DNA from: Candidatus Saccharimonadota bacterium
Lineage (GTDB): Bacteria; Patescibacteriota; Saccharimonadia; Saccharimonadales; UBA4665
Length of the DNA stretch: 64,000 bases
Direction: 5' to 3'
NCBI GenBank assembly: GCA_029288365.1
Contig: JARIHI010000008.1
Location: 62,001 to 126,000, forward strand
Part shown: positions 19,008 through 56,918 of the stretch, piece after piece
Position numbering within the stretch: position 1 is the stretch's first letter
How the letters are laid out: every line of letters starts with the position of its first letter
Program-made: the position numbers and the translations under genes
Notes under the pieces: model-generated
What the model was told of the DNA's origin: nothing
Database searches by the model: none
What the model saw: the letters and a program-made list of their open reading frames with translations, nothing else

Positions 19008-19082
19008 GCTAAAAGCTCCTTTTTAACGTGGTGTGTGCCTATCGTATCATTTTTCTGTGTGATTAAAGGTAAAGAAAGGCAC

Positions 19083-19110
19083 AAAAAAACCAGCACGTCC
19101 AGGCTGGCTT
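19083..19110 (-). terminator. Intrinsic terminator of the GC-rich secreted-protein gene
   Basis: On the minus strand AGCCAGC, an 8-nt loop and GCTGG are followed by seven U residues. It is correctly placed and oriented to end the transcript of the gene at 19282-19728. Confidence 0.85.
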
Positions 19111-19195
19111 AAGATTACTTATATCAAAAATGGAAGTTGTGTGCAGAGCAGAGAGGAGATAAAAAGAGTTGTGTAAAGAAGATTAAATACACCAT

Positions 19196-19284
19196 GGCGT
19201 GGGCCCGGCTGCGTACGTCGTGCTTGGAAAGCACATGCAGCCAGGCCCATGCCTTGAACGGCTAGCTAGCGGTTGGGCTAGCTA
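19196..19284 (-). other. Two strong hairpins in the 3' UTR of the GC-rich gene
   Basis: A 17-bp imperfect GC-rich stem joins 19196-19212 and 19237-19253. TAGCTAGC/GCTAGCTA (19263-19270/19277-19284) is a perfect 8-bp hairpin whose stem contains the TAG stop. They lie between the stop codon and the intrinsic terminator. Confidence 0.65.
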
Positions 19285-19728
19285 TGCGGCAGCGAGTACC
19301 GGTGTTGCGGGTCCTCGGATGGTGTCGCTGCCGATGTTGTCGGTCTTGCCGGCGCCGCTGAGGATTCTTCGGATGGCGTCGTCGGTGCCGTCGTGCTGGC
19401 AGTGCGTGCTCGTTCGTGTGTGGCCCTGGCCGTGCGGGGTGCCTCGTGTTCGTCCGGTTCGCCGGTGGGCCGTCGTCGGGTGCGTGTCGTGGCTGGTGAT
19501 GCCGTCGCTCTGACCGTGCGTCGTGCCGTCTCGTTGGTGAGCGGTCGTCGGGTCGAGCTGGGTCCTTCCGCGCCGTCTGCGCTTCGGCTGGGCCGTCGTG
19601 GTGCCCTGCGAGGTCGCCGTTGCCGTCGGGGCCAGGCTGAGGAGAGCCACGAGCTGGGCCGCGAGGAAGCCGAAGACGAGGGCGAGCATGCGCCGTCTCC
19701 GTGTGGCACGTCGTTTGGTTCCGCTCAA
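19282..19728 (-). CDS. GC-rich secreted orphan protein, TTG start (148 aa)
   Basis: I do not recognise a family. The TTG at 19728-19726 follows AGAAGGGAG by 7 nt. The product begins with a basic stretch (KRRATRRRR) and a hydrophobic core ending LSLAPTATA, a convincing signal peptide of about 40 residues. The mature part is rich in Thr, His, Arg and Gly and ends in a more ordinary segment (DDAIRRILSGAGKTDNIGSD). Third codon positions are nearly all G/C, unlike the neighbours. It has a consensus promoter at 20008-20036, a leader of about 270 nt and its own terminator, so it is an autonomous unit. Confidence 0.6.
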   Translation of the reverse strand: MSGTKRRATRRRRMLALVFGFLAAQLVALLSLAPTATATSQGTTTAQPKRRRRGRTQLDPTTAHQRDGTTHGQSDGITSHDTHPTTAHRRTGRTRGTPHGQGHTRTSTHCQHDGTDDAIRRILSGAGKTDNIGSDTIRGPATPVLAAA

Positions 19729-20001
19729 GGCGAAACTCCCTTCTTGTAGTGGGACACCGAACACTGCATGCGACCATGCAATACTGTAGTACTGCGGACA
19801 TCGCAAGAAAACCGTAACCGAGCATTCTCTTCTTCTCTCTTCTGAGAAGCAAACTCTATGATCTTTCTATAGAGCAAGGCGTCGGTCGAAATCATACTAC
19901 GTGATATATGGTTACCACCGACGCTTTGCTCAACATTTCTGCTCTGCTTGTAAAATAGCATCCTTGCTCAGGGCTAGTATCAGCACACCCGACCAAAGGA
20001 T
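19729..20001 (-). promoter_or_regulatory. Long structured leader of the GC-rich secreted-protein gene
   Basis: About 270 nt between the predicted transcription start (~20001) and the TTG. On the minus strand it begins with a hairpin closed by ATCCTT/AAGGAT. It also contains a 15-bp stem (GAGCAAAGCGTCGGT with ACCGACGCCTTGCTC, one G-U) whose arms lie near 19872-19886 and 19917-19931, and a CTCTAT/ATAGAG hairpin. No ORF is seen in it. The function may be translational control or RNA stability. Confidence 0.55.
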
Positions 20002-20007
20002 AACCGC

Positions 20008-20036
20008 ATACTATAGCACGAAGCACAAAATGTCAA
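20008..20036 (-). promoter_or_regulatory. Strong consensus promoter of the GC-rich secreted-protein gene
   Basis: On the minus strand TTGACA (20036-20031), a 17-bp spacer and TAGTAT (20013-20008). This is the closest match to a sigma-70 -35 box noticed in the window. Confidence 0.75.
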
Positions 20037-20062
20037 ATAACATTTATGCTTGCATTGTGAAT

Positions 20063-20090
20063 ATACTTATGCTTGACTAAGCATAAGTAT
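20063..20090. promoter_or_regulatory. Perfect 12-bp inverted repeat upstream of the surface protein
   Basis: ATACTTATGCTT-GACT-AAGCATAAGTAT ends 27 nt before the ATG at 20117. It lies near the probable promoter, so it is a candidate operator or 5'-UTR hairpin. It has no U-tract. Confidence 0.5.
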
Positions 20091-20116
20091 CAATATGTAG
20101 ATGAGGGAATAAATCA

Positions 20117-35108: not shown

Positions 35109-35129
35109 AAAAGTACTTAACAACTAAAA

Positions 35130-35300
35130 ATATAAAGAGACAGGGAGAGAACTAGCTCATTGATCTGTCAGCAACCTGCCACTTTCGTGTGGTGTTGGTG
35201 CTCCATCTAGCCCGCCAGATAATACAATGCGCAGGAAAGATATCTAATTCTCTTAGAATAAATATCCTTTCTAGCATGTATCGGCAGAAAGGATATTTTT
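35130..35300 (+). promoter_or_regulatory. SAM-I-clan (S-box) riboswitch with SD-hiding platform
   Basis: The aptamer (about 35130-35240) shows S-box landmarks: an AAGAG kink-turn region, ACTAGCTCATTGATCTG, GTCAGCAACCTG and a GGTGCT block. The platform is a perfect 13-bp stem, AAATATCCTTTCT (35260-35272) with AGAAAGGATATTT (35286-35298), which buries the metK SD (AAAGGA) and reaches to the ATG. AGGAAAGATAT (35233-35243) can pair instead with the 5' strand (one mismatch), releasing the SD. This fits SAM shutting off SAM synthesis. Confidence 0.8.
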
Positions 35301-49704: not shown

Positions 49705-50273
49705 AAAATGCGATAATTTTATACGGAAGTCCTAACAAAGTTGAGTATTACAAAGACGACTTTCCGGCTCCAAGCAACAATCACTGGCTACCTTGGTTGC
49801 AAAAACAGCTTTTGATACGGGATATCCTCGCTCAAACTCCGGAAATGCCGAGACCGTATGATCCAATTTACAGCGAGTGGTGCGAAGAGTTTGAACGCTA
49901 CAAAGTTACCTCTAAAACCATATTAATAGGGCATAGTTTTGGTGGGGGCTTTATAGTGCGTTGGCTTAACGAGCACCCAAAAGTTAAAGTCGGAAAAGTG
50001 GTGCTTGTAGCTCCATGGATCAACCCCAATCGCTATAGAGAAACAGATTTCTTTGATAATTTTGAGCTTAATCCCCATATAGCAAGCCAGACTCAAGGTA
50101 TCACGATATTTAATTCAGATGATGACACAGAGTCTATTCAAGCATCAGTTAAAATTTTAAAAGAAAATATAAAGAGTATTAGATGCCAAAATTTCCACGG
50201 TTACGGCCACTTTATATATAAACATATGAAAACTCACGAATTTCCTGAATTATTAGAAGAGGCAATAGCATGA
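49701..50273 (+). CDS. RBBP9/YdeN-like serine hydrolase between pheS and pheT
   Basis: 190 aa. IILYGSPNKVEYY opening, PYDPIYSEWCEEFERY, nucleophile elbow LIGHSFGGGFIVRWL and a C-terminal FHGYGHFIY with the catalytic His; the Asp is probably in FNSDDDTES. An alpha/beta hydrolase of the RBBP9 type, substrate unknown. The start at 49701 was chosen because it overlaps the pheS stop as ATGA, and its own TGA overlaps the pheT start the same way. A longer frame upstream lies within pheS. Confidence 0.88.
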   Translation: MKNAIILYGSPNKVEYYKDDFPAPSNNHWLPWLQKQLLIRDILAQTPEMPRPYDPIYSEWCEEFERYKVTSKTILIGHSFGGGFIVRWLNEHPKVKVGKVVLVAPWINPNRYRETDFFDNFELNPHIASQTQGITIFNSDDDTESIQASVKILKENIKSIRCQNFHGYGHFIYKHMKTHEFPELLEEAIA

Positions 50274-52810
50274 AAGTAAGCGTTAATTGGGTTAAATGGT
50301 ATAGCGATATTGATTTGCCGCCTATTGATGAGTTGGTGACAAAGATTGGTGCTCAGCTTGGCGCAGTCGAGGAAGTTATCGATATTGGCGCAAAATATAA
50401 GGGTATTGTAGTGGCGAAAGTGGTGTCGTGCGAGAAGCACCCTAACGCCGATAAGTTAAACGTATGTGCTATTGACGACGGCGGTAATACACCCGATGTC
50501 AATAGGGATGAAAACGGGCATATACAAGTGGTCTGCGGCGCACCAAATGTGCGTGAAGGTTTGCTGGTAGCTTGGATTCCGCCAAATGTAGTTGTGCCGA
50601 GTACCTACGATACGAGCGATCCGTTCACGCTGGAAGCCCGGGAATTACGAGGCGTGGTAAGCAATGGTATGCTTGCCAGCGGTAAAGAACTGGTAATCAA
50701 CGAAGACCATGATGGCATTTTAGAAGTTGACGAAGATGTAGCGCCAGGTACGCCATTTGCCGCAGTGTACGGTCTGGATGACTACATCATTGATATAGAA
50801 AACAAGATGTTTACCCACCGGCCAGATTGTTTCGGTCAATTAGGCGTGGCACGGGAAATCGCCGGTATTTTGGGTCAGAAATTTATCTCGCCAGATTGGT
50901 ATTTACAGTCACCAAAAAATACAGCAGAACAGGCTGGCGAACTATTGCCGCTTGAGGTACGCAACGAAATTCCTGAACTGGTGCCACGTTTTATGACAGT
51001 GGCTATGAGCGGCATAGAAATCAAGCCAAGTCCGCTGTGGCTGCAATCGTATCTTTCGCGCGTTGGTATCCGCCCAATAAACAACGTAGTAGATGTTACG
51101 AACTATATGATGATGCTCACGGCTCAGCCGTTGCACGCCTACGATTACGATAAAGTGAAGGCTATAGACAGTGGCGACAAGGCCATACTGGTAGTACGTA
51201 AACCTAAGAGCGGCGAAAAACTAACACTACTAAACGATAAAGAAATTCAGCCACGTGATGACGCAATCATGATTGCCAGTGCTACTCGAGCAATTGGGCT
51301 TGGCGGCGTAATGGGCGGTGCCGACACTGAAGTAGATGAAAATACCAAGAATATCATTTTGGAATGTGCTAACTTTGATATGTATTCAATCCGTCGCACC
51401 AGCATGGCGCATGGTTTATTTACTGATGCAGTAACTCGATTCAATAAAGGCCAGAATGCATTACAAAATGACCGGGTTATCGGAAAGTCTATGCAAATGA
51501 TTGCAGAACTCGCTGGAGGTAAAATTGCAAGCGAAGTTAGTGACGAAAATGGTGAAATACACGCTAGTGCCAAAATTGCAGTCACTCCAGGTTTTATTAA
51601 CGCACGACTTGGACTTGATCTTGGTGGTATAGAAATAAGTAATTTATTAAAAAATGTAGAGTTTATTTTCCCGCAGGTAGGTGGCGATAGTAAAGAAGCT
51701 TCACTTGAAGTAACTGTGCCGTTTTGGCGGACGGATATTAAAATTCCGGAAGATATAGTTGAGGAAGTGGGGCGTTTGTACGGTTATGATAAGCTGCCGT
51801 TGAAGCTACCACAAAGACTGATGATACCAACGCAACGCAATGCTTTACTAGAAACCAAAACAAGGATTCGGGATATATTAAGCGGAGCAGGTGCTAATGA
51901 GGTGCTGACATATAGCTTTGTGCATAGTAATTTGCTAGAAAAAGTAGGCCAAAATATAGAATTGGCATTTCAAATAAATAACGCCCTGAGTCCGGATTTG
52001 CAATATTATCGACTGAGCTTAACTCCAAGTTTACTAGAAAAAGTCCATCCGAATATCAAGGCAGGTTACAGTGAATTTGCGTTGTTTGAAATTGGCAGAG
52101 CCCACAGTATTGGCGAACAGGATCCCTATGAGCCTGACATACCAAAAGAAGTAAATGCTCTAAGTTTTGTGTACGCTGCTAAAAATCCTGGTCATGGTGC
52201 AGCTTATTTTAAGGCAAAACATACATTAAGCCATCTGCTTGCAAATTTCAATGTTGATCATTATGTTGGCTTTGAACCCCTAAAAAACGCTGACTTGTAC
52301 AATAACCCATGGATTGAGCAGATGGCTGCTCTTTTTGAACCTGAACGCAGTGCCGTGTTGCGTGACAAAGAAGGAATGATATGGGGTGTGGTTGGCGAAT
52401 ATAAAGCAAATGTGCGAAAAAATCTCAAATTACCTGAATATGTTGCCGGATTTGAAATTGATCCGTTGCTCATGTTCCTGCATAACAAGACTTTGTTCCA
52501 ATATCAGCCGCTGCCGCGTTTTCCGAAAGTAATGCAAGACATTACGCTCAAAGTTCCCACAGAGCTACTACATGCTGAGTTATTCAGATTTGTCTCAGAT
52601 TACTTAACAAAGCATAAGCCTAACCATGTCATATGCAACGTTGCGAGCAAAGATATCTACCAAAAAGAGAATGATCCAGCTTATAAGCACGTAACATTTG
52701 GTATTACCATGGCTAGTTATGAAAAGACTATGCGTGATGAAGAGGTAACCACGTTACTAAACGGACTAGCAGATGAGGCTAAGCAACGGTTGGGCGCAAC
52801 ACGTGTATAG
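50270..52810 (+). CDS. pheT: Phenylalanyl-tRNA synthetase beta subunit
   Basis: 846 aa, near the normal bacterial length. N-terminal tRNA-binding (EMAP-like) domain with GIVVAKVVSCEKHPNADKLNVCAID, the B3/B4 editing domain (LRELRG..., PRFMTVAMSG, NNVVDVTNYMMM), B5 domain (VPFWRTDIKIPEDIVEEVGRLYGYD), catalytic-like core (LSLTPSLLEKVHPN) and a C-terminal anticodon-binding FDX-ACB domain (QPLPRFPKVMQDITLKV). Last gene of the three-gene coupled operon. Confidence 0.97.
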   Translation: MKVSVNWVKWYSDIDLPPIDELVTKIGAQLGAVEEVIDIGAKYKGIVVAKVVSCEKHPNADKLNVCAIDDGGNTPDVNRDENGHIQVVCGAPNVREGLLVAWIPPNVVVPSTYDTSDPFTLEARELRGVVSNGMLASGKELVINEDHDGILEVDEDVAPGTPFAAVYGLDDYIIDIENKMFTHRPDCFGQLGVAREIAGILGQKFISPDWYLQSPKNTAEQAGELLPLEVRNEIPELVPRFMTVAMSGIEIKPSPLWLQSYLSRVGIRPINNVVDVTNYMMMLTAQPLHAYDYDKVKAIDSGDKAILVVRKPKSGEKLTLLNDKEIQPRDDAIMIASATRAIGLGGVMGGADTEVDENTKNIILECANFDMYSIRRTSMAHGLFTDAVTRFNKGQNALQNDRVIGKSMQMIAELAGGKIASEVSDENGEIHASAKIAVTPGFINARLGLDLGGIEISNLLKNVEFIFPQVGGDSKEASLEVTVPFWRTDIKIPEDIVEEVGRLYGYDKLPLKLPQRLMIPTQRNALLETKTRIRDILSGAGANEVLTYSFVHSNLLEKVGQNIELAFQINNALSPDLQYYRLSLTPSLLEKVHPNIKAGYSEFALFEIGRAHSIGEQDPYEPDIPKEVNALSFVYAAKNPGHGAAYFKAKHTLSHLLANFNVDHYVGFEPLKNADLYNNPWIEQMAALFEPERSAVLRDKEGMIWGVVGEYKANVRKNLKLPEYVAGFEIDPLLMFLHNKTLFQYQPLPRFPKVMQDITLKVPTELLHAELFRFVSDYLTKHKPNHVICNVASKDIYQKENDPAYKHVTFGITMASYEKTMRDEEVTTLLNGLADEAKQRLGATRV

Positions 52811-52839
52811 TTGCTCTTCTGGCAAAATTAGTGTAATAT
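52811..52839 (+). promoter_or_regulatory. Promoter of structured RNA unit 1
   Basis: TTGCTC (52811-52816), exactly 17 bp, then TAATAT (52834-52839). Predicted start about 52846, at the foot of the 5' hairpin. Nearly the same -35 as unit 2. Confidence 0.7.
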
Positions 52840-52845
52840 ATTAAT

Positions 52846-53407
52846 CCTACGTGTTGGTAGCAGTGCTCCCCTTGTGGTTGAGAACCTCCAATTCGCGTAC
52901 TTTAGGCAGATAATAAGAAACTTCACTTGAGATAGTGGTCAGAGCTGATATTTAGCTCCCATGTCTCGTTAAACGGTGAAGGAGAGAGCGGGTATGCATG
53001 CTCGTGGTCAGTTCGGGGTTTCGGACCTCGGGTGCTCCTCTACTCTGTCGCTTAACTGACGGACCGGTCAGTCTCGCGATGACTCTTCGACGTGTCGATG
53101 ACACGAAGTTTGAGGGCTCTCTCCTTCGCCGACCATGTTTAAACGTGAACGTATATCGGAAGCTTACCTCTGTGTAAGCGGCCAGCAAGATGGTTCAAGT
53201 CCATCATACGTTCTTGGAGAGGAGGAGGAAGACTCGGAAGCGCGGTTTCCCCCGACCTGCGGCTTTCTGATCTTGGGCTTTGGCCTTCCGTAGCGGTCTC
53301 TCCGATCGCACCATAATACGGACCTCCTTCCTCTCCAGACACATTACTATTATCTGCCTCTTTCCTCAGAATCCATGAAGTATCATCGTGGCTTGTGCGG
53401 AAGGAAT
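52846..53407 (+). ncRNA. Large structured RNA, unit 1 (no known family recognised)
   Basis: About 560 nt, not convincingly coding. The 5' hairpin holds an 18-nt block (52854-52871, TTGGTAGCAGTGCTCCCC) and GGTTGAGAAC (52876-52885), closed by TACG/CGTA and TTGG/CCAA. AGGCAGATAATA (52904-52915) pairs perfectly with 53348-53359, enclosing about 430 nt. Inside: GAGCT/AGCTC; a 15-bp helix 52975-52989 with 53116-53130 that contains CTTCG..GTGTC-gat-GACAC; a tRNA-like element (53147-53213); and GGAGAGGA (53216-53223) with TCCTCTCC (53329-53336). A 3' hairpin (53360-53404) stacks directly on the closing helix. Each of these major elements except the tRNA-like part has a counterpart in unit 2. Confidence 0.8.
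53147..53213 (+). other. tRNA-like element inside RNA unit 1
   Basis: An 8-bp acceptor-like stem (GAACGTAT/ATACGTTC), an arm GCTTAC-CTCTGT-GTAAGC and a T-arm GATGG-TTCAAGT-CCATC with the consensus GGTTCAAGTCC. There is no D-arm, the middle loop has 6 nt, and no CCA follows. It is tRNA-shaped rather than a tRNA gene. Confidence 0.55.
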
Positions 53408-53471
53408 AGATTACTTTTAGAAGTGTTTTTTCAACACAATCCTAAAAAAACGTAATAAAAGCGTTTTAGGG

Positions 53472-53500
53472 TTGCTTTATTTCTATAAGTAGTATAGTAT
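53472..53500 (+). promoter_or_regulatory. Promoter of structured RNA unit 2
   Basis: TTGCTT (53472-53477), 17 bp, TAGTAT (53495-53500). Predicted start about 53507, within the foot of the 5' hairpin, the same geometry as unit 1. Confidence 0.7.
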
Positions 53501-53503
53501 ATG

Positions 53504-54102
53504 TTACCGTACACTATTTGGTAGCAGTGCTCCCCCTCGAGGTTGAGAACTCCCAGATACGGTAAGTACTTGGTAGGTATAATCAAAATAGTCTAGTTTG
53601 CGCATGTGATGCATCAGAGACTTGCTTTATCGTTCCCCCCAAAGGAGGTAGGCTCCAAGCCCACCGACGGCCTCCACGGGCTTGTTGAGACTTGGGTGTT
53701 CGCCGCCGCTTGACGTCGTCTGTCTGCACCGGACGTCGTCAGAACGCTCACTGCAAGCTGCACTGCTTCTCGCGCTGCGAGTGTGGACTTGCAGGCCTCC
53801 TGGCTACTTTCGTAGTTCCGGTAGTGCCGCAGTATCCATTCAAGACATCTGGGATCACGTAGTGATCTGCAGTAGGCTCATAGTCTAAATGTCTCTTCGG
53901 AGAGGAGGGAGATACAGGATGATCGTCCATCAGTCCCCCCGGACGATATCCGTATCTCGAGTGTCACCCGGGCACTCTCTGTGGGATCCCCCGATCCCCC
54001 AAACCCGCAGACCTCCTCTCCCCGCCGCACCTAAAACTTACACTGTTTATACCTACCTCATCTTCTAGAATTCGTAAGTCGTTATGGCTTGTAGAAGATG
54101 AT
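53504..54102 (+). ncRNA. Large structured RNA, unit 2 (no known family recognised)
   Basis: About 600 nt. The 5' hairpin has the identical 18-nt block (53518-53535) and GGTTGAGAAC (53541-53550), closed by TTACCGTA/TACGGTAA. GGTAGGTATAA (53572-53582) pairs with TTATACCTACC (54047-54057), enclosing about 465 nt. Inside are perfect hairpins CAAGCCC/GGGCTTG, CTGCAAG/CTTGCAG (with CTCGC-gct-GCGAG), GATCAC-gta-GTGATC, TCTC-ttcg-GAGA, GAGATAC/GTATCTC (with ATCGTCC/GGACGAT) and GGGATC-cccc-GATCCC. GGAGAGGAGG (53899-53908) pairs with 54012-54021, as in unit 1. The 3' hairpin TCATCTTCTA/TAGAAGATGA (54058-54101) has a loop like that of unit 1. The RND gene follows. Confidence 0.8.
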
Positions 54103-54176
54103 TTTATAAAAATATTTTGGTGACTCCGCCTTTCTTTTGATACCATAAACGTAAACTAAAGAGGGGAGTGTTGTAC

Positions 54177-56918
54177 GTGGCGAAAAGACCCAGTAATCAA
54201 GGTGTTATACCTGAACCAAAAGATAAATTATTACCAAAACTAACGCTAATCTTTTTCAAGAGACCACGACTAACTGCCCTTTTATGGGTAGCTATTCTAT
54301 TGTTTGGGATTTTAAGCTACACGACTTTTTTAAAGCGTGAAGGCTTCCCAAGCGTTGAAATTCCTGTAGTTGTAATTAATGGATCATACGCGGTGGACGA
54401 TGCGGGAAAAGTTGATAGTACGCTTGCAAAACCACTCTCTGAAATCGCCTTAAAGCAACCAGGAGCTACTAAGGTACAAGCAAGTAGCGAAGATAATTTC
54501 TTTACAGCCATTATTCAGTATAAAGAGAACGTTAATGCCAAGACTGCAAGCAGGGACCTTGAGCAAGCCGCTAAACAGGCAGGGGTAATTCCAAAAGGCG
54601 CGAAAATAGAGTTCAACGCGCCGCAATTTGGAGTAACCGGTGGTGCCAAACAAAAAATTGATGCTACCATTTCGGTGTTTTCACCACAAAATAATGTGCC
54701 ATTACCTGAGTTAACGGGAAAAGCTGAGGATATCGCCAAAGAATTAAACAAACACAAACAACCTCAAATCCAGAATTTCTTTGTACAAAGTCCGTTTGAG
54801 ACGGTTACCAATCCGGGAACCGGACAAAACACGGATATACAGCGATCTTTTGATCGCTACGCAGAACGTCGAGACGACAAGACCGCTTTCTACAGTTCGG
54901 TCATCATTGGTGTTACTGGAGTTAAAAACGCTGATGTCTTAAAGCTTGACGACCAGATTAACGAAGCGATAGCAGCGGTAAAGAAAAACAACCGCTTTAA
55001 AGATGTCGACCTCACGATAAGCACTAGTTTGGCACCGGCGATTACTGAAAGCATTGACGAACTTCAGCGGGTATTACTCGAAGGATTATTGGCAGTATTG
55101 ATCATAGGTTCCATAGTTATTGCCTTTCGTGCGTCGGTGATGATAGTCGTTGCAATGCTAACAGTGATCGCTGCGACGCTAGGAGTACTCTATGTACTAG
55201 GGTATAGCCTGAATGTTATCACGCTTTTCGGGCTTATTCTCGGTCTGTCACTGATTGTAGACGATACTATCATAATGACTGAAGCGCTTGATGCAGCCCG
55301 TCGTCGCAATAAAACGGCGCGCGAAGCGGTTCGTCAAGCCACGCGAAAAATCAGCCGGGCAATGGTTGCTGCCACCCTGACGGCAGCTTTGAGTTTCACG
55401 CCGCTACTGTTTGTAAGCGGTGTGTTAGGTAGTTTTATCCGTGCCATACCAGTGACTATTATTTCTGCTTTGCTTATCAGCTTATTTGTGGCGCTACTTT
55501 TTATTCCGTTATTCGCACGGTTCTTACTGCTTGGTAAAAAGCAAATGGGCGAAGGTAATGTAAAAGAAATTGCCGCAGGCATTGAAGAAAAAATTGCAAT
55601 TTTCATTGCGAAGCCTATGCTTTGGGCGAAGCGCTCTCGCTTGAGAGAAGTGTTCGTTGGGCTTACGGCTGTTATCATTGGCCTTGGCTTTATTTTTGCA
55701 GGCGGGATGATTTCCCGCTACGTTACATTCAATATTTTCCCGCCAAGCAAAGACACTAATCAAATTTCAGTCTCTTTGACATTTCCCGAAGGCACCACAA
55801 TACAACGAGCAGAAACTATCACCGATCAAACAGATAAACGAATAGGCGCTCTATTAGGAGATAACGTTGTTAAAGGATCGTATTACAACTTGGCCAACGC
55901 TCAGTCGGCTATACTTTATATTGATCTAACACCTTATACCGAGCGTGAACCGACAGCCCCCCAGCTAGTAGACCAGGTTAAGAGTGAATTTGCTAAACAT
56001 CCAGCTGAAGCCCGAGTAGAGGCTGCGCTGGTTGACGTAGGGCCACCTGCGGCTGGCTTTACGGTTCAAGTCAATGCCGAGGATCGTACCGATGCTTTGC
56101 GCTTAAGCAAGGACATGGTGAAATACCTGGAAGGCCATACGCTTACTCGTCCTAGTGGTGAAAAGGCTGTCATCAAAACAGCAAACATTGAAAACCCCGG
56201 CCAATATTCGCGAGTTGACAACAAACCAGTTATTCGAATAAACGCTACGTTTGATGCCACTGATACTACAACGCTGGTAACATTGGCTCAAAATGATATA
56301 AAAGAAGAATTCAATAACCAAAAATTAGTCGAATATAATCTGAAGGCTTCTGACATAACGTTCGACCTAGGACAAGAATCCGAAAACCAGGATTCGTTCA
56401 AAGCTCTCGCTTTGGCTTTCCCAATCTTGTTGCTGGTAATATTTACGTTGCTAGCAGTGCAGTTCCGCTCCTTGCTGCAGCCGCTGCTTATTTTCCTGGC
56501 AATACCATTCAGCTTCTTCGGTATCACGCTCGGTTTGTACATAACCGATAATGCGTTCAGCTTCTTTGCGATGCTCGGCTTCTTTGCGCTTATTGGCTTG
56601 AGTATTAAAAACACGATTCTGCTTACCGACTATGCTAACCAAGCTAGACGCGCAGGCATGGGATCAATTGATGCCACGGTGGCTGCCCTAAAAGAACGGT
56701 TCCGTCCACTAATCGCTACCAGCATTACGGCTGTCTTTTCGCTGTTGCCGCTTGCTTTGACAAGTCCATTTTGGGAGGGGTTGGCGGTAGTACTAATCGG
56801 CGGACTTATTTCAAGTACCTTCTTAGTGATCACTGTCTTCCCGTACTACTATCTCGGCGCTGAATACTTACGCATTAAATTTTCAGTGCTCGTACGTAAA
56901 ATTCGTCGTAAAAAATAG
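54177..56918 (+). CDS. RND-superfamily transporter (AcrB/HAE-like, stand-alone)
   Basis: 913 aa from GTG at 54177, chosen because GGAG lies 8 nt upstream. Twelve TM helices in the RND 1+5+1+5 layout, with two extracytoplasmic domains (about 60-285 and 525-750). The TM4-equivalent carries the proton-relay acid pair region LGLSLIVDDTIIMTEALDAARR; the second half has FFAMLGFFALIGLSIKNTILLTDYANQARR. It lacks adjacent membrane-fusion and outer-membrane genes, as expected for a cell without a Gram-negative outer membrane. Substrate unknown. It directly follows the two structured RNA units. Confidence 0.92.
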   Translation: MAKRPSNQGVIPEPKDKLLPKLTLIFFKRPRLTALLWVAILLFGILSYTTFLKREGFPSVEIPVVVINGSYAVDDAGKVDSTLAKPLSEIALKQPGATKVQASSEDNFFTAIIQYKENVNAKTASRDLEQAAKQAGVIPKGAKIEFNAPQFGVTGGAKQKIDATISVFSPQNNVPLPELTGKAEDIAKELNKHKQPQIQNFFVQSPFETVTNPGTGQNTDIQRSFDRYAERRDDKTAFYSSVIIGVTGVKNADVLKLDDQINEAIAAVKKNNRFKDVDLTISTSLAPAITESIDELQRVLLEGLLAVLIIGSIVIAFRASVMIVVAMLTVIAATLGVLYVLGYSLNVITLFGLILGLSLIVDDTIIMTEALDAARRRNKTAREAVRQATRKISRAMVAATLTAALSFTPLLFVSGVLGSFIRAIPVTIISALLISLFVALLFIPLFARFLLLGKKQMGEGNVKEIAAGIEEKIAIFIAKPMLWAKRSRLREVFVGLTAVIIGLGFIFAGGMISRYVTFNIFPPSKDTNQISVSLTFPEGTTIQRAETITDQTDKRIGALLGDNVVKGSYYNLANAQSAILYIDLTPYTEREPTAPQLVDQVKSEFAKHPAEARVEAALVDVGPPAAGFTVQVNAEDRTDALRLSKDMVKYLEGHTLTRPSGEKAVIKTANIENPGQYSRVDNKPVIRINATFDATDTTTLVTLAQNDIKEEFNNQKLVEYNLKASDITFDLGQESENQDSFKALALAFPILLLVIFTLLAVQFRSLLQPLLIFLAIPFSFFGITLGLYITDNAFSFFAMLGFFALIGLSIKNTILLTDYANQARRAGMGSIDATVAALKERFRPLIATSITAVFSLLPLALTSPFWEGLAVVLIGGLISSTFLVITVFPYYYLGAEYLRIKFSVLVRKIRRKK

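Follow-up and report, generated by a model that had tools for sequence, protein, structure and literature searches.

Tandem large structured RNAs behind pheT in a Saccharimonadia genome probably belong to an undescribed family

The stretch of DNA analysed here, referred to as the window, comprises 64,000 nucleotides (contig JARIHI010000008.1, positions 62,001 to 126,000) from a Saccharimonadia genome of about 0.9 Mb. Between the gene for the phenylalanyl-tRNA synthetase beta chain, pheT, and a gene for an RND transporter lie two units in tandem, each of about 570-600 nt (Table 1). Both fold far more strongly than dinucleotide-preserving shuffles, with z values of -6.4 for unit 1 and -6.7 for unit 2, and in both the sense strand folds better than the antisense strand (-3.3 and -3.6, respectively). 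The units contain no conserved open reading frame and show no protein-coding conservation. A six-frame comparison yielded no convincing reading frame common to five units; its best match (E 0.006) was a 42-residue piece between unit 1 and unit 2, which was not found in the other relatives.

Table 1. Coordinates of the two units, their structural elements and their neighbours, in window positions; the limits of the units are inferred
Feature	Position	Strand	Basis
pheT (Phe-tRNA synthetase beta), left neighbour of the units	50270..52810	+	Pfam, synteny
Unit 1 promoter-like string, TTGCTC-17-TAATAT	52811..52839	+	sequence; resembles the stretch before unit 2; no sigma-70 consensus match
Unit 1, large structured RNA	52846..53412	+	fold z and no Rfam match; limits inferred
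Unit 1 5' hairpin, motif GGTAGCAGTGCTCCCC..GGTTGAGAAC	52848..52899	+	motif kept in unit 2
Unit 1 P1, 5' strand AGGCAGATAATA	52904..52915	+	12/12 bp; covariation
Unit 1 multibranched arm on stem GGTGAAGGAGAGAGC/GCTCTCTCCTTCGCC	52974..53131	+	MFE fold
Unit 1 arm D, GGAGAGGAGG stem, perfect four-way junction	53216..53336	+	13 basal pairs, three arms, 0 unpaired nt
Unit 1 P1, 3' strand TATTATCTGCCT	53348..53359	+	12/12 bp; covariation
Unit 1 3' hairpin, AGAA/UUGU with G-G mismatch	53360..53404	+	covariation
Unit 2 promoter-like string, TTGCTT-17-TAGTAT	53472..53500	+	sequence; no sigma-70 consensus match
Unit 2, paralogous large structured RNA	53503..54102	+	fold z and no Rfam match; limits inferred
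Unit 2 5' hairpin, shared motif, foot TTACCGTA/TACGGTAA	53504..53565	+	sequence/fold
Unit 2 P1, 5' strand GGTAGGTATAA	53572..53582	+	11/11 bp; covariation
Unit 2 arm D, GGAGAGGAGG stem, perfect four-way junction	53899..54021	+	10 basal pairs, 0 unpaired nt
Unit 2 P1, 3' strand TTATACCTACC	54047..54057	+	11/11 bp; covariation
Unit 2 3' hairpin, AGAA/UUGU with G-G mismatch, then TTTTATAAAAATATTTT	54058..54101	+	covariation
AcrB/MMPL-like RND transporter, right neighbour of the units in this genome only	54168..56918	+	Pfam

The stretch following pheT was examined in about 50 relatives, and four more genera from the same family-level group (represented by genomes G071, G027, G010 and G067) have a slot that is long, strongly folded and devoid of long genes. 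The fold z values against dinucleotide shuffles are -13.1 for G071, -9.2 for G027 and -3.8 for G010, and those of control stretches, which follow pheT in relatives with a gene at this position, range from +1.2 to -1.9. The primary sequences of these relatives can hardly be aligned with one another, and what is kept is the architecture. A BLASTN search with unit 1 over the family returned chance matches only. Only inspection of the syntenic slot revealed the four relatives, which suggests that sequence-based searches overlook large RNAs that evolve fast in reduced genomes.

Each unit is preceded by a string of the form TTGCTY-17-TARTAT, and the stretches around the two strings resemble each other. 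A scan of positions 52750-54220 for the sigma-70 consensus gave 0 promoters against 1.7 expected in shuffles, and no intrinsic terminator was found by a scan of the same interval. Because the consensus scan is empty, the case for a promoter belonging to each unit rests on the likeness of the two upstream stretches. At the 5' end of both units the block TTGGTAGCAGTGCTCCCC is followed, after a gap of 4 or 5 nt, by GGTTGAGAAC, a pattern that occurs at exactly two places in the whole genome, namely the two units. The feet of the hairpin that carries this motif are TACG/CGTA in unit 1 and TTACCGTA/TACGGTAA in unit 2. Among the relatives the motif is shared by G071 only, where it reads GGTAACAGTGCT..GTTGAG. 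A relaxed pattern, GTARCAGTGCTN{2,12}TTGAG (GTARCAGTGCT..TTGAG), matched in 2 of 92 family genomes, the matches being the two window units and the G071 unit, all of them behind pheT, and it had zero control matches. The exact pattern was found nowhere outside its own genome (92 family genomes, GTDB contigs and viral contigs), because the sequences of the relatives have drifted. A covariance model of the 5' hairpin, R1, was run over 393 genomes of the class and 393 of the order, and recovered the genome's own units and a weak match in G007; it is too narrow, failing to detect even G071. The G007 match was rejected, since it falls within a frame on the opposite strand that resembles glycyl-tRNA synthetase. 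A match to GGTARCAGTGCT..TTGAG in G266 was likewise set down to chance, as it lies inside an open frame adjoining a coding gene.

Downstream of the 5' hairpin, a long-range helix, P1, closes each unit, enclosing 432 nt in unit 1 and 464 nt in unit 2. The corresponding 5' strands are GACAGGCGTGAT in G071, AAAAGACAGGCA in G010, AGATAGACG in G067 and GACAGA(bulge)CGTTAT in G027, and in all six sequences the complementary strand lies near the 3' end. In the core of P1, eight pairs across six sequences, 94% of the cells are paired; five of the eight pairs are altered on both sides and single-sided changes number 0. This covariation score was reached by none of 500 shuffles, and partners slid out of register also fall short of it. 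The length of P1 is unremarkable by itself, because coding controls also give best helices of 8-16 bp with a similar span, within 1-1.5 kb. A long-range helix of 11-12 bp is thus not unusual alone, and it is position, covariation and the shared core that give P1 its significance.

Within P1, arm D is built upon a polypurine stem. Its 8-mers GGAGAGGA and TCCTCTCC are separated by 105 nt in unit 1 and 107 nt in unit 2, and the pattern GGAGAGGA-N82..112-TCCTCTCC occurs in 2 of 317 genomes, the matches being the two window units and G010, all after pheT. A purine-rich stem of 10-13 pairs is found in arm D of unit 1, unit 2, G010 and G071, and it opens into a perfect four-way junction in these four units as against 0 of 434 background windows, with the qualification that G071 passes the strict junction criterion only if its arm D is folded alone. 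The three inner arms are unrelated in sequence among the four units. RNAalifold on a MAFFT alignment of arm D recovered hardly more than the basal stem; because the sequences have diverged too far to be aligned as such, topology was compared instead.

Directly after P1 comes a 3' hairpin, in which A-G-A-R stands opposite U-U-G-U with an invariant G-G mismatch, a feature common to unit 1, unit 2, G071 and G027. In its flanking stems 8 of 16 pairs are doubly changed, and again 0 of 500 shuffles reach the covariation score. The alignments of P1 and of the 3' hairpin were made by hand from few sequences, with the enclosed part replaced by an artificial GAAA linker and one bulged A of G027 left out, and covariation was judged without R-scape. 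A descriptor of the 3' hairpin, run over a set of loci, returned the window units, G027, one match in a coding region and one elsewhere in the window. A 3'-hairpin-like match in G064 (G064:C133:2789-2819, minus strand) has the hairpin AGAATCCATGA..TCGTGG.CTGT inside a TGCCGCTA/TAGCGGCA stem; lying on a high-GC contig and adjoining a coding frame, it was judged to be chance or contamination.

Much of this architecture had been claimed in the original prediction, which was made from the sequence alone. Its shared 18-nt block and 10-mer with a 4-5 nt gap, its perfect closing helices of 12 and 11 bp around 430-465 nt, its two different 5' hairpin feet and its helix with about 105 nt between the strands all held. 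The claim that each unit has its own promoter held in part: the strings with 17-nt spacing exist, but they do not match the sigma-70 consensus. The helices had been read as covariation between paralogues, the signature of a selected RNA, which held through position, covariation and shared core and not through helix length. The prediction had overlooked the 3' hairpin and the perfect four-way junction, as well as the relatives from other genera. Its central claim, a selected large structured RNA of no recognised family, is supported by the empty Rfam searches reported below, by covarying homologues and by the absence of coding conservation.

The family is patchy and small, and its outer members rest on fewer elements than the inner ones. 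Membership is most secure for unit 1, unit 2 and G071. It is good for G010, on the strength of arm D and an 11-nt identity in P1, in the absence of the 3' motif, and also for G027, which has the 3' hairpin, P1 and synteny but neither the 5' motif nor the four-way junction. The weakest case is G067, which offers only P1, strong folding, synteny and a purine-rich stem; its slot is a 465-nt non-coding gap with P1 (AGATAGACG/CGTCTATCT) and the purine-rich stem, followed by an ABC transporter gene, and we consider it the most divergent likely relative.

In all five genera pheT is the left neighbour, on the same strand. In G071, G027 and G067 the RNA is flanked by pheT and by an ABC transporter gene that starts 736, 483 and 510 nt after pheT, respectively. 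In many relatives the ABC gene lies only 2-153 nt behind pheT and there is no RNA; one of these is G028, a congener of G027, with a gap of 153 nt and the element absent. In G010 the long frame that comes next runs on the opposite strand. Since the right-hand gene varies (RND transporter, ABC transporter or a convergent gene), the element is not the leader of one particular gene. It tracks the 3' flank of pheT and not the downstream gene, and has been gained or lost between close relatives. As a separate observation, the 153-nt gap of G028 contains one hairpin, CCAGAACTCATC..GATGGGTTTTGG, possibly a remnant of the 3' hairpin.

The chief rival explanation is a cis element, either a structured 3' UTR of pheST that stabilises the mRNA or processes its 3' end, or a leader for the gene downstream. 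It is kept alive by the fixed neighbour, directly behind which the element always lies on the same strand in five genera, and by the missing consensus promoter and terminator; the ABC transporter that follows in three of the relatives also speaks for it. Against it stand the varying downstream gene, with the opposite-strand frame in G010, and the fact that most relatives have pheT without the RNA. A tandem duplicate that keeps both ends would be odd for a UTR, and the size and complexity are beyond those of usual cis elements. We regard the cis element as unlikely. Nevertheless, with no consensus promoter or terminator independent transcription is unproven, a processed pheST 3' UTR remains possible, and the constant pheT neighbour could also be compatible with a role in cis.

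A second rival is a mobile or selfish element that is non-autonomous and passes through a structured RNA stage, such as a remnant of a retroelement or intron. In its favour are the patchy presence, with an occupied slot in G027 and a nearly empty one in its congener G028, and the two adjacent copies in this genome. However, a single insertion site is used in five genera, neither the 5' motif nor the polypurine arm has further copies in the genome, and there is no match to a group I or II intron or to any other Rfam family. Viral contigs gave only chance or coding matches, those to the polypurine pair and the 5' motif falling mostly in open frames without support from R1, and phage records gave one chance match. 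A mobile element is accordingly considered very unlikely.

Comparison with catalogued RNAs bears on a third rival, namely that the units are a diverged form of one of the known large RNAs (RNase P, OLE, ROOL, GOLLD or raiA) lying beyond the reach of the Rfam models. Similar size and complexity speak for it. At gathering thresholds, Rfam searches of the whole window left the units unmatched and found elsewhere one tRNA and one SAM riboswitch, both far from the units. Relaxing the threshold to E up to 10 over the region gave four weak entries at chance level, none of them from these known families, and cmscan of three relatives at E up to 3 gave no family match. RNase P RNA (RF00010) is likewise a multi-helix RNA of a few hundred nucleotides, but this identity is excluded by the genome's only RF00010 match, a normal RNase P RNA on another contig (G000:C3) with 250.6 bits. 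With these results a diverged known RNA is all but ruled out.

OLE, ROOL and GOLLD are RNAs of about 600 to over 800 nt with many arms, conserved in structure more than in sequence, and their function is unknown or partly known (PMC12286853). The likeness to them that had been suggested for the units holds for size and complexity, that is, for many arms and a structure conserved far better than the sequence, but homology was not found: the units have no covariance-model match and their lineage is Saccharibacteria. ROOL and GOLLD are encoded in phages or prophages, often close to tRNA islands, whereas the units lie beside pheT; the sole tRNA in the window is at 34 kb, and the association with phage or prophage tRNA islands does not apply to the units. 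Unlike in these RNAs, no protein partner or oligomer has been shown. A search for signs of homo-oligomers gave no loop-loop complementarity of 6 or more in the units, and a few 6-nt palindromic loops, none of which is shared among the units. The raiA-motif RNA, or ModT, is similarly a conserved structured non-coding bacterial RNA and not a riboswitch, but is known from other phyla (PMC11706538), and the units have no Rfam match to it. They are two to three times larger than raiA. The open-access literature that was searched made no mention of large structured RNAs in Saccharibacteria; subscription journals were not covered. Large ornate RNAs are known from bacteria as a kind, and in family, host group and architecture the units match no catalogued family.

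Taken together, joint architecture, compensatory changes, synteny and the absent coding signal are shown, albeit with few sequences. The preferred reading is that the two units are probably tandem paralogues of an undescribed family of large structured non-coding RNAs, of about 450-680 nt, found immediately 3' of pheT within one family-level group of the Saccharimonadia (Candidatus Saccharibacteria). Under this reading each unit would give rise to a stable transcript of its own, an inference for which there are no transcript data. P1 gathers several arms, including the perfect four-way junction on its polypurine stem, with the 5' and 3' hairpins as flanks, and the 3' hairpin may in addition protect the 3' end or serve as a weak terminator. 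The sequences drift fast while the helices and the junction persist, which suggests selection on shape and not on sequence, as is seen in structural RNAs, and speaks against target recognition by base pairing. By inference only, the RNA most likely acts in trans as a structural RNA, probably a scaffold that engages a protein partner or associates with itself; by analogy, and with no relationship shown, it would work like OLE, ROOL or GOLLD. A bolder reading, which is no more than possible, is an RNA-only or RNA-protein particle in the ultrasmall, probably episymbiotic Saccharibacteria, in which the two paralogues might conceivably form a hetero-assembly.

Known classes of bacterial RNA that reach this size and complexity are few, and the majority have proved to be unusual, such as membrane RNPs and RNA nanocages. 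A class confined to the Candidate Phyla Radiation, with a pair of paralogues and a fixed chromosomal position, lends itself to immediate study through probing, cryo-EM and transcriptomics. About 1.2 kb of non-coding DNA is costly in a genome of about 0.9 Mb.

Two further observations concern other parts of the window. Positions 19009-20116 contain another GC-rich stretch of about 800 nt (core 19140-19960) that folds strongly on both strands, with z of about -6 and -5 for the core and -8 for the whole gap. It has a 10-bp closing helix, GCAGAGCAGA/TCTGCTCTGC, and lacks the motifs of the tandem RNAs; an antisense frame begins like a signal peptide, and a low-complexity secreted protein is an alternative. 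The SAM riboswitch (RF00162, 51.2 bits) of this Saccharimonadia genome lies at positions 35127-35246.
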